64,000 nt of DNA from assembly GCF_900088825.1 (NCBI RefSeq), contig NZ_LT592170.1, positions 1,228,852 through 1,292,851 of the forward strand. The letters run 5' to 3'. Numbering within the stretch: the stretch's first letter is position 1; the number at the start of each line of letters is the position of its first letter. The position numbers and the translations under genes are program-made. Below the pieces are notes generated by a model. It did not search any database. It was not told where the DNA came from and saw only the letters and a list, made by a program, of their open reading frames with translations. Source of the DNA: Thiomonas delicata (GTDB taxonomy: Bacteria > Pseudomonadota > Gammaproteobacteria > Burkholderiales > Burkholderiaceae_C). Positions 45,611-51,197 of the stretch are shown here, in pieces.

Positions 45611-47641
45611 ATGCATCGAACAGCCGCAGAGCGCAGTCTGACCCTTCCGCGCGAGATCATCAAGCGCAACGGCCTTCGCGTCGCATTCGATGCGGGCAAG
45701 ATCTTCTCGGCGCTGTCGAGGGCGGGCGAGGCCAGCGGCGAGTTCGGGTCCGAGCAGGCGCAAACGCTGTGCGACGCGGCGGTCAAGGTCCTCATCCACC
45801 GCTTCGGCCATCAGGCCGCGAGCGTCGAGCAGGTTCAGGACGTGGTCGAGCAGACGTTGATCGCGGCGGATCACTTCAAGACCGCGCGCGCCTACATCGT
45901 CTATCGCGAGCAGCATGCCAAACTGCGCCAGGACCACAAGGCCCTGGTCGATGTGGAAAGCTCGGTGAATGAATACCTCGGCCGCACCGACTGGCGCGTG
46001 AATGCCAATGCCAACCAGGGCTATTCCCTGGGCGGGCTCATCCTCAACGTGGCCGGCAAGGTCACGGCGAACTACTGGCTGTCGCACGTCTACCCGGCCG
46101 AGATCGGCGAGGCGCATCGCAACGCCGACATCCATATCCATGATCTGGACATGCTGTCGGGGTATTGCGCCGGCTGGTCGCTGCGCACCTTGCTCAACGA
46201 GGGGCTGAACGGCGTGCCGGGCAAGGTCGAGTCGGGGCCGCCTCGGCACATGAGTTCCGCGGTCGGGCAGATCGTCAACTTCCTGGGGACCTTGCAGAAC
46301 GAATGGGCGGGAGCGCAGGCTTTTTCCTCGTTCGACACCTATATGGCCCCTTTCGTGCGCAAGGACCGGATGCCCTACGCGGCCGTGCGGCAGTGCATGC
46401 AGGAACTGATCTACAACCTCAACGTCCCCTCGCGCTGGGGGACGCAGACGCCTTTCACGAATCTGACCTTCGACTGGACCTGTCCCGAGGATCTGCGCGC
46501 GCAGACGCCCCGCATCGGCGGCGAGGACATGCCTTTCGCCTACGGCGATCTGCAGGCCGAGATGGACCTGATCAACCGCGCCTACATCGACGTCATGACC
46601 GCCGGTGACGCGAAGGGCCGTGTCTTCACCTTCCCGATCCCGACCTACAACATCACCAAGGATTTCCCGTGGGAGTCGGAGAACGCGCAGCGCCTGTTCG
46701 ACATGACCGCGAAATACGGTCTTCCCTACTTCCAGAATTTCATCAACTCCGAACTCTCCCCCAACATGGTGCGGTCGATGTGCTGCCGTCTGCAGCTCGA
46801 CCTGCGCGAGTTGCTCAAGCGCGGCAACGGGCTGTTCGGCTCGGCCGAACAGACGGGTTCGGTCGGGGTCGTCACGGTCAACTGCGCGCGGCTGGGCCAT
46901 CTCCATCGCGGCGACGAGGCGGGCCTGTTCCGCCGGCTCGACACCCTGCTGGACATGGGCAGGCAAAGCCTGGAGATCAAGCGCAAGGTCATCCAGCGAC
47001 TCATGGACCAGGGCTTGTTCCCCTACACCAAGCGCTACCTCGGCACCTTGCGCAACCACTTCTCGACCCTGGGGGTCAACGGCGTCAACGAGCTGATCCG
47101 CAACTTCACGGCGGACGGCCACGACATCACCACGCCATGGGGGCACGACTTCGCCGTGCGCCTGCTCGATCATGTGCGCGGGCGCATCGTCGCCTTCCAG
47201 GAACAAACCGGGCACCTCTACACCCTCGAGGCCACCCCCGCCGAGGGCACGACCTACCGTTTCGCCAAGGAAGACCGCAAGCGCTACCCCGGCATCCTGC
47301 AGGCCGGCACGCCCGAACAGCCCTACTACACCAACTCGACGCAGTTGCCGGTTGGTTTCACGGACGACGCCTTCGAGGCGCTGGAACGGCAGGAACCCCT
47401 GCAGTCCAGGTACACCGGCGGCACCGTGCTGCACCTGTACATGCGCGAACAGCTGTCCAGCGGCGCGGCATGCCGGGAGCTGGTGCGGCGCGCGCTCACG
47501 CGCTTTCGCCTGCCGTACATCACCGTCACGCCGACGTTTTCGATTTGCCCCAGGCACGGCTACCTGTCCGGCGAGCACCGCTTCTGCCCGAAGTGCGACG
47601 AAGAGGCGCTCGCGCGCAAGCGCAGCCTGCTCGCCGCCTGA
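45611..47641 (+). CDS. nrdD: Anaerobic (class III) ribonucleoside-triphosphate reductase, main part
   Basis: A 676-residue class III reductase that makes dNTPs without oxygen. An N-terminal ATP-cone (LPREIIKRNGLRVAFDAGKI onward) is followed by the barrel with LDMLSGYCAGWSL and SSAVGQIVNFLGTLQNEWAG. The C-terminus is SICPRHGYLSGEHRFCPKCDE, the zinc-binding part, and then it stops. The glycyl-radical segment that should follow is missing here and is encoded by the next small gene. GGAG lies six bases before the ATG. Two NrdR boxes precede it. Confidence 0.9.
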   Translation: MHRTAAERSLTLPREIIKRNGLRVAFDAGKIFSALSRAGEASGEFGSEQAQTLCDAAVKVLIHRFGHQAASVEQVQDVVEQTLIAADHFKTARAYIVYREQHAKLRQDHKALVDVESSVNEYLGRTDWRVNANANQGYSLGGLILNVAGKVTANYWLSHVYPAEIGEAHRNADIHIHDLDMLSGYCAGWSLRTLLNEGLNGVPGKVESGPPRHMSSAVGQIVNFLGTLQNEWAGAQAFSSFDTYMAPFVRKDRMPYAAVRQCMQELIYNLNVPSRWGTQTPFTNLTFDWTCPEDLRAQTPRIGGEDMPFAYGDLQAEMDLINRAYIDVMTAGDAKGRVFTFPIPTYNITKDFPWESENAQRLFDMTAKYGLPYFQNFINSELSPNMVRSMCCRLQLDLRELLKRGNGLFGSAEQTGSVGVVTVNCARLGHLHRGDEAGLFRRLDTLLDMGRQSLEIKRKVIQRLMDQGLFPYTKRYLGTLRNHFSTLGVNGVNELIRNFTADGHDITTPWGHDFAVRLLDHVRGRIVAFQEQTGHLYTLEATPAEGTTYRFAKEDRKRYPGILQAGTPEQPYYTNSTQLPVGFTDDAFEALERQEPLQSRYTGGTVLHLYMREQLSSGAACRELVRRALTRFRLPYITVTPTFSICPRHGYLSGEHRFCPKCDEEALARKRSLLAA

Positions 47642-47675
47642 GGTTTGCAACGCGCATCACCCACCCCGGAGGACC

Positions 47676-47876
47676 ATGATGAACCCTGTTTCCAACCCCG
47701 TCCCGAGCCACACCGCCCTGGAGCCCCAGCTCCGCGACGACGAGCGCCAGCCTTGCGAGGTCTGGACCCGCGTCATGGGTTATCACCGTCCCGTGTCGAG
47801 CTTCAACATCGGCAAGCAAGGCGAGCACCATGAGCGCCGGTTCTTTGCGGAACAGCGCTGTGCCCTGGGGGCCTGA
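47676..47876 (+). CDS. Glycyl-radical domain of class III reductase on a separate gene
   Basis: A 66-residue protein with its own GGAGG ribosome-binding site, 34 bases after nrdD. After a variable 26-residue start it reads CEVWTRVMGYHRPVSSFNIG and KQGEHHERRFF. RVMGY is the glycyl-radical motif of NrdD, which in most class III enzymes is fused to the C-terminus of the large chain right after the zinc-binding part. The two polypeptides must assemble for activity. The end overlaps nrdG. Confidence 0.87.
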   Translation: MMNPVSNPVPSHTALEPQLRDDERQPCEVWTRVMGYHRPVSSFNIGKQGEHHERRFFAEQRCALGA

Positions 47877-48591
47877 ACCGACGCGTCGCGAGCCCACGCT
47901 GCGCGTGGGCGGCATGACCGCGCTGACCAGCATCGACTTTCCGGGCCGGCTTGCCGCGGTGATCTTCTGCCAGGGCTGCCCATGGCGCTGCGGGTATTGC
48001 CACAACCCGCATCTGCTCGACGCCGGCGCCGCCGCCGGCATGCACTGGAGCGCCGTGATGGCTTTCCTGGCGCGGCGGCGGGGTCTGCTGGACGGCGTGG
48101 TGTTCTCCGGCGGCGAGCCCACCCTGCAGGCCGCCTTGCCCGAGGCGATGCAGCAGGTGCGCAGCCTGGGCTTCGCCGTTGCCCTGCATACGGCGGGGAT
48201 GTATCCGGAGCGCTTCGCCGAGGCGCTCCATCTGGCCGACTGGGTCGGGTTTGACGTGAAGGCGCCCTGGGATCGCTACGACGCGGTGACCGAAGTCCCC
48301 GGCAGCGGCGAACGCGTGCGGGCGTCCCTGGACCGGCTCTTGGCCGATGACGTGCCCTTCGAATGCCGGACCACCTGGCACCCCGGCCTTTTCGATGAGA
48401 CGGAACTCCTGGCCATGGGCAAGGCGCTCGCCGGCCGCGGCGTGCGCCACTGGGCGGTGCAGGCCTGCCGGCTTCCCGGGGAGCCGGCAACGGGCGGCGC
48501 CGGCCTGGACCGCGCGCGTCTGCGGGCGCAGATCGAGACCCTGCGGATGCCGGGCTTCGTGCTGCGCGGCGCAGACGCCCAAGCCGCTTGA
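47830..48591 (+). CDS. nrdG: Anaerobic reductase-activating radical SAM enzyme
   Basis: A 253-residue radical SAM activase. The CX3CX2C cluster motif is in FCQGCPWRCGYCHNPHL and the GGEP motif is in GVVFSGGEPTLQ. It generates the glycyl radical on the NrdD partner. It begins 47 bases inside the preceding small gene, so the two are probably translated together. The N-terminal 25 residues precede the usual start; MTALTSIDFPGR at about residue 29 is the family core. Confidence 0.88.
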   Translation: MSAGSLRNSAVPWGPEPTRREPTLRVGGMTALTSIDFPGRLAAVIFCQGCPWRCGYCHNPHLLDAGAAAGMHWSAVMAFLARRRGLLDGVVFSGGEPTLQAALPEAMQQVRSLGFAVALHTAGMYPERFAEALHLADWVGFDVKAPWDRYDAVTEVPGSGERVRASLDRLLADDVPFECRTTWHPGLFDETELLAMGKALAGRGVRHWAVQACRLPGEPATGGAGLDRARLRAQIETLRMPGFVLRGADAQAA

Positions 48592-48641
48592 AGACCGCCG
48601 TCCCCGCCGAAACCCCAAACCTGTCTCGGATGGAACCCACG

Positions 48642-49655
48642 ATGTCGACAATGAAGCGCCAACCTGAACTCGTCTGCCCGGCGGGCTCGCTGCGGGCCCT
48701 GGAAATGGCGGTCGATGCGGGCGCGGACGCCGTGTATCTGGGCCTGCGCGACGCCACCAACGCGCGCAATTTCGCCGGCCTGAATTTCGATGACGCCCAG
48801 GTTCGCGCCGGCGTCGCCTACGCCCACGGGCGCGGCGCCAGCGTTCTCATGGCGCTCAACACCTATGCCGACGCCCGCGACCCCAGGCCCTGGTTTGCCG
48901 CCGTCGACCGCGCGGTCGACATGGGGGCCGATGCGCTGATCGTGGCCGACGCCGCCGTGATGGCCTACGCCCGGCGTCAACATCCGGCCATGCGCCTGCA
49001 TCTGTCGGTGCAGGCTTCGGCGACGACCTACGCGGCCATTGCGTTCTACCGCGAGCGCTACGGCATCCAGCGCGCGGTTCTGCCCCGGGTGCTGACGATG
49101 TCGCAGGTGGCGCACGTCATCCGGAACACCGAGGTGGACATCGAGGTGTTCGGCTTCGGCAGTCTGTGCGTGATGGTCGAGGGCCGCTGCGCGCTGTCGT
49201 CGTACGCGACCGGGCAGTCCCCCAACAATGCCGGGGTGTGCTCCCCCCCTTCGGCGGTTCGCTGGATCGACCGCAGCGGCGCCGTGGAGGCGCGCCTGAA
49301 CGATGTCCTCATCGACCGCTACGCGCCCGACGAGCCTCGCGCCTATCCCACCCTGTGCAAGGGCCGCTTCGACGTCGGCGGCGTGCGCGACTACGCGCTG
49401 GAAGAGCCCACCAGCCTGAACACGCTGGAACTGCTGCCGCAGCTGATCGATGCCGGCGTCAAGGCCATCAAGATCGAGGGGCGCCAGCGCAGCCCGAGCT
49501 ACGTGGCCGAGGTCACGCGGGTCTGGCGCGCCGCCATCGATCTGGCCGCCTCGTCCAGCCGTTATGCCGTGCAGCCCGCCTGGTCGGCCGAGCTCGGCCG
49601 GTGGGCCGAAGGCCAGCAGCACACGCTGGGCGCGTATGACCGGCCGTGGAGATAG
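48642..49655 (+). CDS. ubiU: U32-family UbiU, O2-independent ubiquinone hydroxylation
   Basis: A 337-residue U32 protein. The four cysteines of the UbiU [4Fe-4S] centre are visible in order: CVMVEGRC (two), then NNAGVCSPP and YPTLCKGRF. With UbiV it hydroxylates the ubiquinone ring without oxygen. The core starts PELVCPAGSLRALEMAVDAG. Start choice is uncertain: ATGs at 48630, 48642 and 48651 are in frame and none has a strong ribosome-binding site. It follows nrdG and precedes ubiV. Confidence 0.87.
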   Translation: MSTMKRQPELVCPAGSLRALEMAVDAGADAVYLGLRDATNARNFAGLNFDDAQVRAGVAYAHGRGASVLMALNTYADARDPRPWFAAVDRAVDMGADALIVADAAVMAYARRQHPAMRLHLSVQASATTYAAIAFYRERYGIQRAVLPRVLTMSQVAHVIRNTEVDIEVFGFGSLCVMVEGRCALSSYATGQSPNNAGVCSPPSAVRWIDRSGAVEARLNDVLIDRYAPDEPRAYPTLCKGRFDVGGVRDYALEEPTSLNTLELLPQLIDAGVKAIKIEGRQRSPSYVAEVTRVWRAAIDLAASSSRYAVQPAWSAELGRWAEGQQHTLGAYDRPWR

Positions 49656-49662
49656 CGATCCG

Positions 49663-50652
49663 ATGCCGTCTGAATGGATGAACGATATGCCCGAAGCCTC
49701 GACCCCCGCAAGAATCGCGCTGACCGTGGGACCGGTCCTGTACTGGTGGCCCAAGCCCGCGCTGATGGATTTCTACGCCGGCATCGCCGACAGCCGCGCG
49801 GACGCCGTCGTCCTGGGGGAAACCGTCTGCTCGCGCCGCCACGAGGTGAAGCTGGCGGACTGGCTGGCCCTGGCCCGCGAACTCCGCGCCGCCGGCAAGG
49901 ACGTGATCCTGGCCTCGCAGGCCCTGGTGATGAGCGAAGCCGAGCTGCGTTCGGTGCGCGATCTCGTCGAGCAGGCGGAATTTGCGGTCGAAGCCGGCGA
50001 CGTCTCGGCGGTCCAGCTCCTGGCGCAGCGGCGGCGCGCGCATGGCGATTCGCGCCCCTTTGTTCTCGGCCCGCACATCAATGTCTACAGCCGGGAGGCC
50101 CTGCAGGAATACGCCGCCGCGGGGGCCGGGCGATGGGTCGCGCCCGCGGAGCTGGCGCTGGATGCGATCGCGGCGGTCAATCCGGCGCATGCCCCCGTGC
50201 GTGGGGTCGCCGGAGACCTCGCAACCGAGGTCTGGGCCTTCGGCCGCCTGCCGTTGTCGTTCTCGGCGCGATGCTTCACCGCGCGGCATCATCATCTGCA
50301 CAAGGACTCCTGCGAATTCCGTTGCCGCGACGATGCCGACGGCCTGCTCCTGCGCAGCGGCGAGGGCCAGCCCTTTCTCAGCCTGAACGGCACGCAGATC
50401 CAGTCCGCAGGCGTCCAGGCCCTCATCGGCGAGGCCGGCATGCTGCGCCAGGCGGGCGTGTCGCGCATTCGGCTCTCGCCATGCAGCCGCGGCTTCGCCG
50501 AGGTGCTCGATCTTTTCGAGGGCGTGTACAACCAGGGGGCGGCGGCCGACGGCGCGCTGGCCAGCCTGCGCGGGATGGATTTGCCAGGCGCCTTGATCCA
50601 TGGTTTCGCGCATCGCCAACCCGGCATGCAGCTTGCGCCGGACAGTCCATGA
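49663..50652 (+). CDS. ubiV: U32-family UbiV
   Basis: A 329-residue U32 protein, partner of UbiU. The expected cysteines are seen: one in GETVCSRRHEV and three in SARCFTARHHHLHKDSCEFR followed by C. The N-terminal ALTVGPVLYWWPKPALMDFY is the UbiV pattern. ATG 49663 has GGAG 11 bases upstream; 49678 and 49687 are alternatives. Its stop overlaps the ubiT start by ATGA, giving the order U-V-T. Confidence 0.87.
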   Translation: MPSEWMNDMPEASTPARIALTVGPVLYWWPKPALMDFYAGIADSRADAVVLGETVCSRRHEVKLADWLALARELRAAGKDVILASQALVMSEAELRSVRDLVEQAEFAVEAGDVSAVQLLAQRRRAHGDSRPFVLGPHINVYSREALQEYAAAGAGRWVAPAELALDAIAAVNPAHAPVRGVAGDLATEVWAFGRLPLSFSARCFTARHHHLHKDSCEFRCRDDADGLLLRSGEGQPFLSLNGTQIQSAGVQALIGEAGMLRQAGVSRIRLSPCSRGFAEVLDLFEGVYNQGAAADGALASLRGMDLPGALIHGFAHRQPGMQLAPDSP

Positions 50653-51197
50653 ACCTGGAGCAAGATCCCATGCACAACGCCACGAAGCGAACCTGGGCCA
50701 TCGGCGCCTCGCAGGATTGCGCGGCTGCGCCGACCGCCATCGACGCGCGCGCTTCCATGCCTTGGTTGAGCGATGTGGGCGACGCCGCCGTGCGTCTCGC
50801 CGCGACGATGCCCGAACCCCTGCGCAAGATCCTGCGTGCCTTGCCGCCGCAGCCGCCGTCCTTCGTGCTGGCGCGTCTGCTCGATCGCGTCCTGCTGCCG
50901 CGCCTGGACTCCCCGGCGCGCGCGGCATGGTCCGGCCGGGTCGTGCAGTTGGATCTGGACGATCTCGGATTGCGGCTGCGCATGCGGCTCGATGCCCGCG
51001 GCTTCGGGGTGGCGCCTGCGGGCGCCTCCCCCGCGGTGACCGTGCGCAGCACGAGCGCGGCGCTCTGGCGCCTGGTGCGTGGGGTCGACGACGCGGATCG
51101 TTTGTTTTTCGAGCGCGCCCTGGTGATGGAGGGCGACACGGAATTCGGGCTGCTGTTGAAAAACACCCTCGATGCCATCGGGCCGCTGTGGCGCTGA
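50649..51197 (+). CDS. ubiT: SCP2-domain UbiT, ubiquinone synthesis accessory protein
   Basis: A 182-residue protein with an SCP2-type lipid-binding domain (VRSTSAALWRLVRGVDDADR and FFERALVMEGDTEFGLLLKN). E. coli UbiT is needed for anaerobic ubiquinone synthesis with UbiU and UbiV and probably binds the hydrophobic intermediates. The ATG at 50649 overlaps the ubiV stop. A second ATG at 50670 is possible. The N-terminal 40 residues look unstructured. Confidence 0.8.
   Translation: MNLEQDPMHNATKRTWAIGASQDCAAAPTAIDARASMPWLSDVGDAAVRLAATMPEPLRKILRALPPQPPSFVLARLLDRVLLPRLDSPARAAWSGRVVQLDLDDLGLRLRMRLDARGFGVAPAGASPAVTVRSTSAALWRLVRGVDDADRLFFERALVMEGDTEFGLLLKNTLDAIGPLWR

Follow-up and report, generated by a model that had tools for sequence, protein, structure and literature searches.

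The closest described relatives of the enzyme reported here are the one-chain class III ribonucleotide reductases NrdD of phage T4, Escherichia coli and Thermotoga maritima (4coi/4u3e), with which it shares the barrel, the ATP-cone, the zinc site, the RxxGY loop and the NrdG activase. According to section 2.5 of PMC9669993, class III enzymes hold the glycyl site poised within the active site, and a passage of PMC3019208 states that oxygen cuts these enzymes at the glycyl radical. For another glycyl-radical enzyme, pyruvate formate-lyase, spare parts have been described, namely YfiD/GrcA of E. coli and Y06I of phage T4; a 2021 study of YfiD names YfiD and Y06I as the only validated spare parts, both for pyruvate formate-lyase, and considers spare parts for other glycyl-radical enzymes possible (PMC8683613). 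Ribonucleotide reductases in more than one chain have been described as well: NrdJa/NrdJb of Pseudomonas aeruginosa is a split class II enzyme (PMC9669993), and split phage nrdD genes, such as that of Aeromonas phage phiAS4, are ascribed to introns, inteins or unknown fragmentation (PMC3653736). In open-licence papers, among them passages of PMC9669993, PMC11226230, PMC4390871, PMC9531940, PMC11528403, PMC2795772 and PMC3019208, we found neither a split NrdD whose radical chain is encoded separately nor orphan copies of that chain described.

The window analysed here, a stretch of 64,000 nucleotides from Thiomonas delicata, encodes a class III ribonucleotide reductase whose glycyl-radical loop is placed on a gene of its own. 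The features concerned are the following:

45611..47641, forward strand: nrdD-L, 676 aa, ATP-cone and barrel of class III ribonucleotide reductase, without the glycyl-radical tail
46778..46789, forward strand: finger-loop motif MCCR, NrdD-L residues 390-393, assigned from sequence
47546..47596, forward strand: zinc-site segment CPRHGYLSGEHRFCPKC, the final conserved block of NrdD-L
47668..47672, forward strand: GGAGG, likely ribosome-binding site of nrdD-S, assigned from sequence
47676..47876, forward strand: nrdD-S, separate glycyl-radical subunit, 66 aa; PF13597 positions 530-562; phrog_4132
47778..47780, forward strand: presumed radical glycine codon, Gly35 in RVMGY, from alignment to TmNrdD and alignments A1 and A3
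47830..48591, forward strand: nrdG, NrdG2 type, radical-SAM activase; TIGR02495 at 189.9 bits (cut-off 131.15)
48588..49655, forward strand: ubiU, anaerobic ubiquinone biosynthesis; NF047963 at 535 bits; a neighbour outside the enzyme

NrdD-L matches NF006126 with 1127 bits and contains the ATP-cone PF03477 (82.8 bits), and its match to the Pfam family NRDD (PF13597, 576 bits) covers model positions 2-530 of 562. The protein terminates with ...CPRHGYLSGEHRFCPKCDEEALARKRSLLAA, shortly past the zinc-site segment, in which three cysteines and a histidine are invariant (alignment A4, 15 rows) and which, as in the family at large, is presumed to bind zinc. The thiyl-radical cysteine is presumed, from the sequence, to sit in MCCR, the double-cysteine finger-loop motif of class III enzymes (PMC9669993, section 2.5). 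Barrel, ATP-cone, finger-loop cysteine motif and cognate NrdG, all expected of a class III NrdD, are present in the window; a glycyl-radical loop within the same chain is absent from NrdD-L, whose NRDD match ends at position 530. The remainder of the family model is found in NrdD-S, MMNPVSNPVPSHTALEPQLRDDERQPCEVWTRVMGYHRPVSSFNIGKQGEHHERRFFAEQRCALGA, which carries WTRVMGYHRPVSSFN and matches NRDD positions 530-562 with 31.7 bits (curated cut-off 26.2), so that both proteins jointly cover the model, and the enzyme is a two-chain variant rather than a standard NrdD. The initial annotation, made from the letters of the window, had already proposed an NrdD that ends just past its zinc site with RVMGY on a separate gene, and both the open reading frames and the Pfam coverage bear this out. 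It had also assigned 26 extra N-terminal residues to the small protein; an extension indeed exists, with about 23 residues outside the Pfam match, which starts at residue 24. The GGAGG it had ascribed to the small gene is present, 34 nt separate the nrdD-L stop from the first ATG of nrdD-S, and a second ATG at 47679 has the better spacing from this GGAGG. The frames of the two genes differ (45611 vs 47676 modulo 3), and the end of nrdD-S is overlapped by the start of nrdG.

The radical-type glycine Gly35 is invariant in alignments A1 and A3, as is RVMGY across the 37 rows of A1, and a profile of the small protein aligns, weakly (E 0.11), with residues 616-644 of T. maritima NrdD 4coi, 'YMRIVGY'. 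Downstream of nrdG, at 48588-51197 of the window, ubiU is followed by an open reading frame with an SCP-2 domain, which we assume could be ubiT; these genes suggest an anaerobic ubiquinone cluster. The T. delicata genome contains exactly two NRDD matches, which are the window pair. A second or full-length NrdD, whose presence elsewhere would have spoken for a silent split form, was looked for by the NRDD search and is absent from this assembly, which is 99.99% complete, so that this objection to the split enzyme falls. As PF02867, the family of class I/II large chains, is matched twice elsewhere in the genome, the class III enzyme of the window need not be essential.

Split NrdD is widespread and already present in databases. 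In a tblastn search with the small protein, 29 of 72,556 plasmid records gave matches, including Cupriavidus necator pHG1, C. metallidurans CH34, Bradyrhizobium, Paracoccus and Sulfuricurvum, and a few of the 29 are full-length proteins, for example in Acidiphilium, Actinomyces and Geoalkalibacter. Many of these matches are labelled nrdD, RefSeq's label for the small gene on pHG1, for example, and the suspicion that short NrdD entries might exist is confirmed by small genes annotated as nrdD in Cupriavidus, Bradyrhizobium, Shinella, Azospira and others. Among genomes of the same family, 30 of 200 have a match to the small protein, the own genome included. In a sample of 398 genomes from the same phylum, NRDD matches above cut-off occur in 56, and in 12 of them the barrel match stops at profile position 528-552, each with a separate tail match; no genome of this sample has a barrel cut near the zinc site without a tail. 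A thirteenth split genome of the sample, G407, was recognised from its sequence, and G488 and G555 have one frame for barrel and tail, with an insert.

The survey of NrdD without the C-terminal loop and with an adjoining small gene, as the initial annotation had proposed, comprises 140 loci, 139 of them from cellular genomes or plasmids besides the window itself, and of these 140, 126 are split, 7 fused and 7 tail-only; as the loci were picked mostly by tail queries, 126/140 does not represent a prevalence. The survey omits L006-L057 (short duplicates of own or family loci, and phylum-sample loci with largely E. coli-type full-length NrdD) and the repeat L100; an earlier tally of 108 split loci by a motif rule was set aside, as it mislabels L054 and L057, which have a shared frame with an insert. 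Tails are distinct in 139 of the 140 loci, L060 and L107, both counted, having identical ones. The median distance from the stop of the large gene to the tail homology is 81.5 nt, and in 125 of the 126 split cellular loci the tail starts at most 455 nt past the barrel stop. What had been regarded as an unusual architecture is therefore common within this NrdD clade, at least among these mostly tail-selected loci. In 12 loci (L131, L122, L114, L116, L133, L134, L139, L142, L144, L151, L172, L181), the NrdD barrel contains an insert of 311-312 residues that is probably an intein, with a LAGLIDADG domain in both inserts tested (L131, L142). On plasmid pAZI09 of Azospira sp. I09 (L103), split nrdD-L, nrdD-S and nrdG lie between the genes of the class I alpha and beta subunits.

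From the window alone, one nrdD gene broken into two by a sequencing or assembly error or by a recent frameshift could have been suspected, as the frame of the small gene is open far upstream, through the end of nrdD. Two separate genes are, however, present in 126 of the 140 loci, which come from many genomes and plasmids, and in five genomes the large and the small gene are not adjacent; this refutes such an artefact and leaves it a practically negligible probability; the clean break that had been read from the window is thus supported well beyond it. In one of these five genomes, G505, the barrel gene lies about 9 kb away from the small gene and nrdG, and in four Holosporaceae genomes the barrel is on one contig and the tail with NrdG on another, which means that the small gene must function through a product of its own. 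Stop readthrough as a general rule was rejected, as barrel and tail share a frame in just 25 of the 126 split loci; for these 25, 19 of which have a single stop in between, readthrough may still contribute. In Formivibrio citricus, a full-length NrdD coexists with a split one.

Natural fusions occur among the split relatives, L118 in a gammaproteobacterial genome (732 aa from the first ATG; where compared, it reaches 83% identity to split relatives) and L154 in a Verrucomicrobiota MAG, and they imply that both parts work together. An AlphaFold2 model of the L118 fusion, computed with 15 rows, was poor (mean pLDDT 65.6, tail under 50). In a tree of 60 rows, there are at least 7 changes between split and fused forms, 5 of them forced by starred branches, with long-branch warnings. 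This tree was made by a quick method from 60 of the 116 rows, after the split rows had been thinned at 85% identity and loci with a short best stretch, such as intein-bearing ones, excluded, and it serves solely to show that split and fused forms interchange.

The split enzyme presumably functions in vivo, as the pHG1 locus of C. necator has the same split layout and nrdDG on pHG1 has been reported to be required for complete denitrification in that strain (PMC2864759). The same source places the genes for the enzyme of eutrophus H16 on pHG1, reports that cobalamin counters the defect of the pHG1-free mutant, and lists the CH34 genes as Rmet_5137 and Rmet_5139; Rmet_5138 in between is presumably the small gene of CH34.

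What looks new is the viral side, as many phages carry only the small radical piece. A first scan with the small protein of the window as query gave 81 relatives in viral contigs, 80 of which were fetched, and a second with the 37-row alignment gave 402, of which 80 were kept. By an NrdD profile built here, the tail stands alone in 151 of the 153 viral loci fetched in these overlapping scans, and the remaining two are one contig with a barrel. The loci represent 100 distinct viral contexts (146 loci; 7 others were missed by the motif pattern). In the 59 contexts with at least 3 kb upstream and at least 2 kb downstream, the barrel is absent in 58 and present in one, and an NrdG-type motif was found in none, versus 72 of 80 cellular loci. 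Whole virus records with the small gene have no barrel in 76 of 77 cases (49/50 and 27/27), and NrdG2 was above cut-off in 0 of the 50 whole virus records searched; one of them, G587, gave two weak matches. As viral records can be fragmentary and no completeness figure accompanies the 77 whole records, one could imagine the barrels on missing DNA. We nevertheless consider such a fragment artefact very unlikely: 58 of the 59 well-flanked contexts have no barrel, as against the at most 455 nt that separate tail and barrel stop in all but one of the split cellular loci; a control with the tail of full-length viral NrdD as query, which includes the zinc site and hence favours fused forms, found the barrel in 31 of 31 viral loci; and in an Allochromatium humboldtianum genome that is assembled, an orphan tail lies in a prophage and the sole barrel elsewhere.

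The orphan-bearing contigs are phages, though some gave no hallmark. PHROG matches of neighbouring proteins include portal (L221, L262, L264, L200, L266), major head and tape measure (L264), integrase (L203, L245), tail fibre (L229), tail assembly (L195) and head-tail adaptor proteins (L215), as well as DNA polymerase (L211), helicase (L233) and transposase (L337). No PHROG match was obtained for the proteins tested from L253, L228, L320 and L331; for those from L202 and from the Allochromatium plasmid or contig loci L109 and L124, all PHROG matches were non-structural or weak; and single proteins of L200, L195, L316, L284 and L304 had no Pfam match. The small protein itself, in the window as in L109, L348, L326, L203 and L245, corresponds to phrog_4132, annotated as 'unknown function', and the L334 protein matches the NrdD-like phrog_487 somewhat better. 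Plasmids of A. vinosum and A. tepidum also have an orphan tail with no barrel in the whole record. MT835493 had the appearance of an orphan in tblastn and was rejected, as it is full-length.

L193 (IMGVR_UViG_2889436542_000005) is the only viral record examined with both NrdD-L and the small gene, and an insert of about 120 residues is present in the former. The orphan small proteins of L262, L263, L260 and L348:708-947 have a cysteine-rich N-terminal extension, perhaps a metal site of their own. A reverse transcriptase (L203:2668-3813) is found near an orphan small gene, and the archaeal virus ANMV-1, another holder of an orphan tail, has been published as carrying a diversity-generating retroelement (PMC4372165). 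ANMV-1 (KP703175.1, L350:2686-3120) encodes a 144-aa protein, AJP62049.1, that comprises the NRDD tail only (profile 519-562), and no barrel is present in its 38 kb record. This protein is annotated as anaerobic ribonucleoside triphosphate reductase and was published as an oxygen-sensitive ribonucleotide reductase (PMC4372165). Its tail differs in sequence type, with RIVGYLRPV and two upstream CxxC pairs, and in a viral search for its relatives two stretches matched the pattern and none was confirmed.

The viral small genes are under purifying selection. For 99 distinct viral cores, the median dN/dS is 0.26 and the maximum 0.86, based on 517 pairs with dS 0.2-1.5 (3738 pairs were saturated and the remainder out of dS range), and an SD-like 4-mer precedes the start in 59 of 98 viral open reading frames tested, versus 15.0 expected after shuffling. 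Degenerate relics are disfavoured by both results. Each of the 58 distinct viral 36-mers from the first scan has the radical glycine, and so do the loci that the motif patterns missed; as the viral search patterns include parts of the motif, its conservation among matches is partly selected, and the variants RCMGY, RAMGY, MGYYRP, MGYFRP and MGYCRP were still recovered.

A host and its prophage could be connected in one case. A. humboldtianum DSM 21881 (G643) has one split NrdD set, which is its only NrdD, and two further orphan tails. The region that holds one of these (L346) encodes major head, internal virion and tail proteins, which marks it as a prophage, and it is 100% identical over 10,126 nt to the IMG/VR locus L328; in the comparison of viral loci with the cellular loci fetched, no other pair shares 300 nt or more at 95% identity. 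The small proteins of host and prophage have the core in common and differ outside it. A. palmeri combines a split set with a single orphan, and with G652, which also has an extra tail, extra copies beside complete sets were found in 3 of 36 genomes, all chosen for holding a close relative of the A. vinosum orphan.

Taken together, we consider it very probable that this is a two-part class III ribonucleotide reductase. Its radical subunit would be exchangeable, with phage and plasmid orphans supplying extra or own copies of this subunit to a host NrdD-L. NrdD-L would contribute the ATP-cone, the barrel, the finger-loop cysteines and the zinc site, and the glycyl-radical loop would be given in trans by NrdD-S. 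NrdG would generate the radical on Gly35 of NrdD-S, probably while NrdD-S is docked on NrdD-L, and from the NrdD-S loop the radical would move on to the cysteine of the finger loop, just as it does within a one-chain NrdD. The initial annotation had likewise expected NrdG to form the radical on a detachable small subunit that might be exchanged after oxygen damage. We further hypothesize that an oxygen-cut NrdD-S is discarded and replaced and that the 676-aa enzyme need not be remade; with a separate radical chain of 66 aa, oxygen damage would be cheap to repair. The idea of an exchange gains support from the orphan small genes on phages and plasmids. That the host enzyme uses the viral copies is suggested by sequence comparison and by the one host-prophage pair, and it seems to us somewhat more likely than not that phages with the radical subunit alone employ it in infected cells to maintain the split enzyme of the host, to restart it or to take it over, by which the dNTP supply would be secured.

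The split may alternatively be a neutral accident, with permanently assembled chains, no exchange, and phage copies that are relics or have another function. The interchange of split and fused forms on the tree, for all its long-branch warnings, would be expected if the break costs little; we still hold this to be unlikely, as the orphans persist in 100 distinct viral contexts with the glycine kept, low dN/dS and SD-like sites, and as extra copies lie next to complete sets in the three genomes mentioned, from a set chosen for relatives of the A. vinosum orphan. Still less probable, in our opinion, is an inhibitor or decoy function, in which phage NrdD-S occupies NrdD-L or NrdG and stops host dNTP synthesis. 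Competition between a lone subunit and the copy of the host is conceivable, and the cysteine-rich N-termini of some orphans would fit, but a pure decoy would need neither the radical glycine nor the loop, both of which are retained, and phages need dNTPs.

If this reading holds, phages would provide DNA-precursor synthesis with a spare radical and thereby do for ribonucleotide reductase what T4 Y06I does for pyruvate formate-lyase, and the two-chain enzyme would offer a natural system to study radical transfer and oxygen damage. It would also explain the short 'nrdD' database entries and phrog_4132 of unknown function, and correct the view that the 144-aa gene of ANMV-1 encodes a reductase. 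The idea is testable in C. necator H16, a denitrifier, and in an Allochromatium strain that has its own prophage.

In comparison with one-chain NrdD, the loop that follows the zinc site is here a separate gene product, and its gene overlaps nrdG. With NrdJa/NrdJb (PMC9669993), it has in common that a C-terminal part of a ribonucleotide reductase is a second chain, whereas NrdJa/NrdJb is a class II enzyme that uses adenosylcobalamin and no glycyl radical. In phiAS4, nrdD is present in several pieces within one phage (PMC3653736), whereas the phages found here hold the radical piece alone. A further parallel is that to YfiD/GrcA and Y06I, as NrdD-S is likewise a small stand-alone protein with a radical-type glycine motif (66 aa, RVMGY), and Y06I is phage-encoded, too. 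Homology to the glycyl-radical domain of pyruvate formate-lyase was not found: for the window protein, Pfam gave only PF13597 at a threshold of E 0.01, and PF13597 alone reached E 0.001 for the viral protein of L203. According to PMC8683613, YfiD and Y06I restore an oxygen-cut enzyme that has a glycyl domain of its own, whereas NrdD-L has no glycyl loop that could be cut. NrdD-S is a natural spare-part candidate for a DNA-precursor enzyme, with its radical domain already separate.
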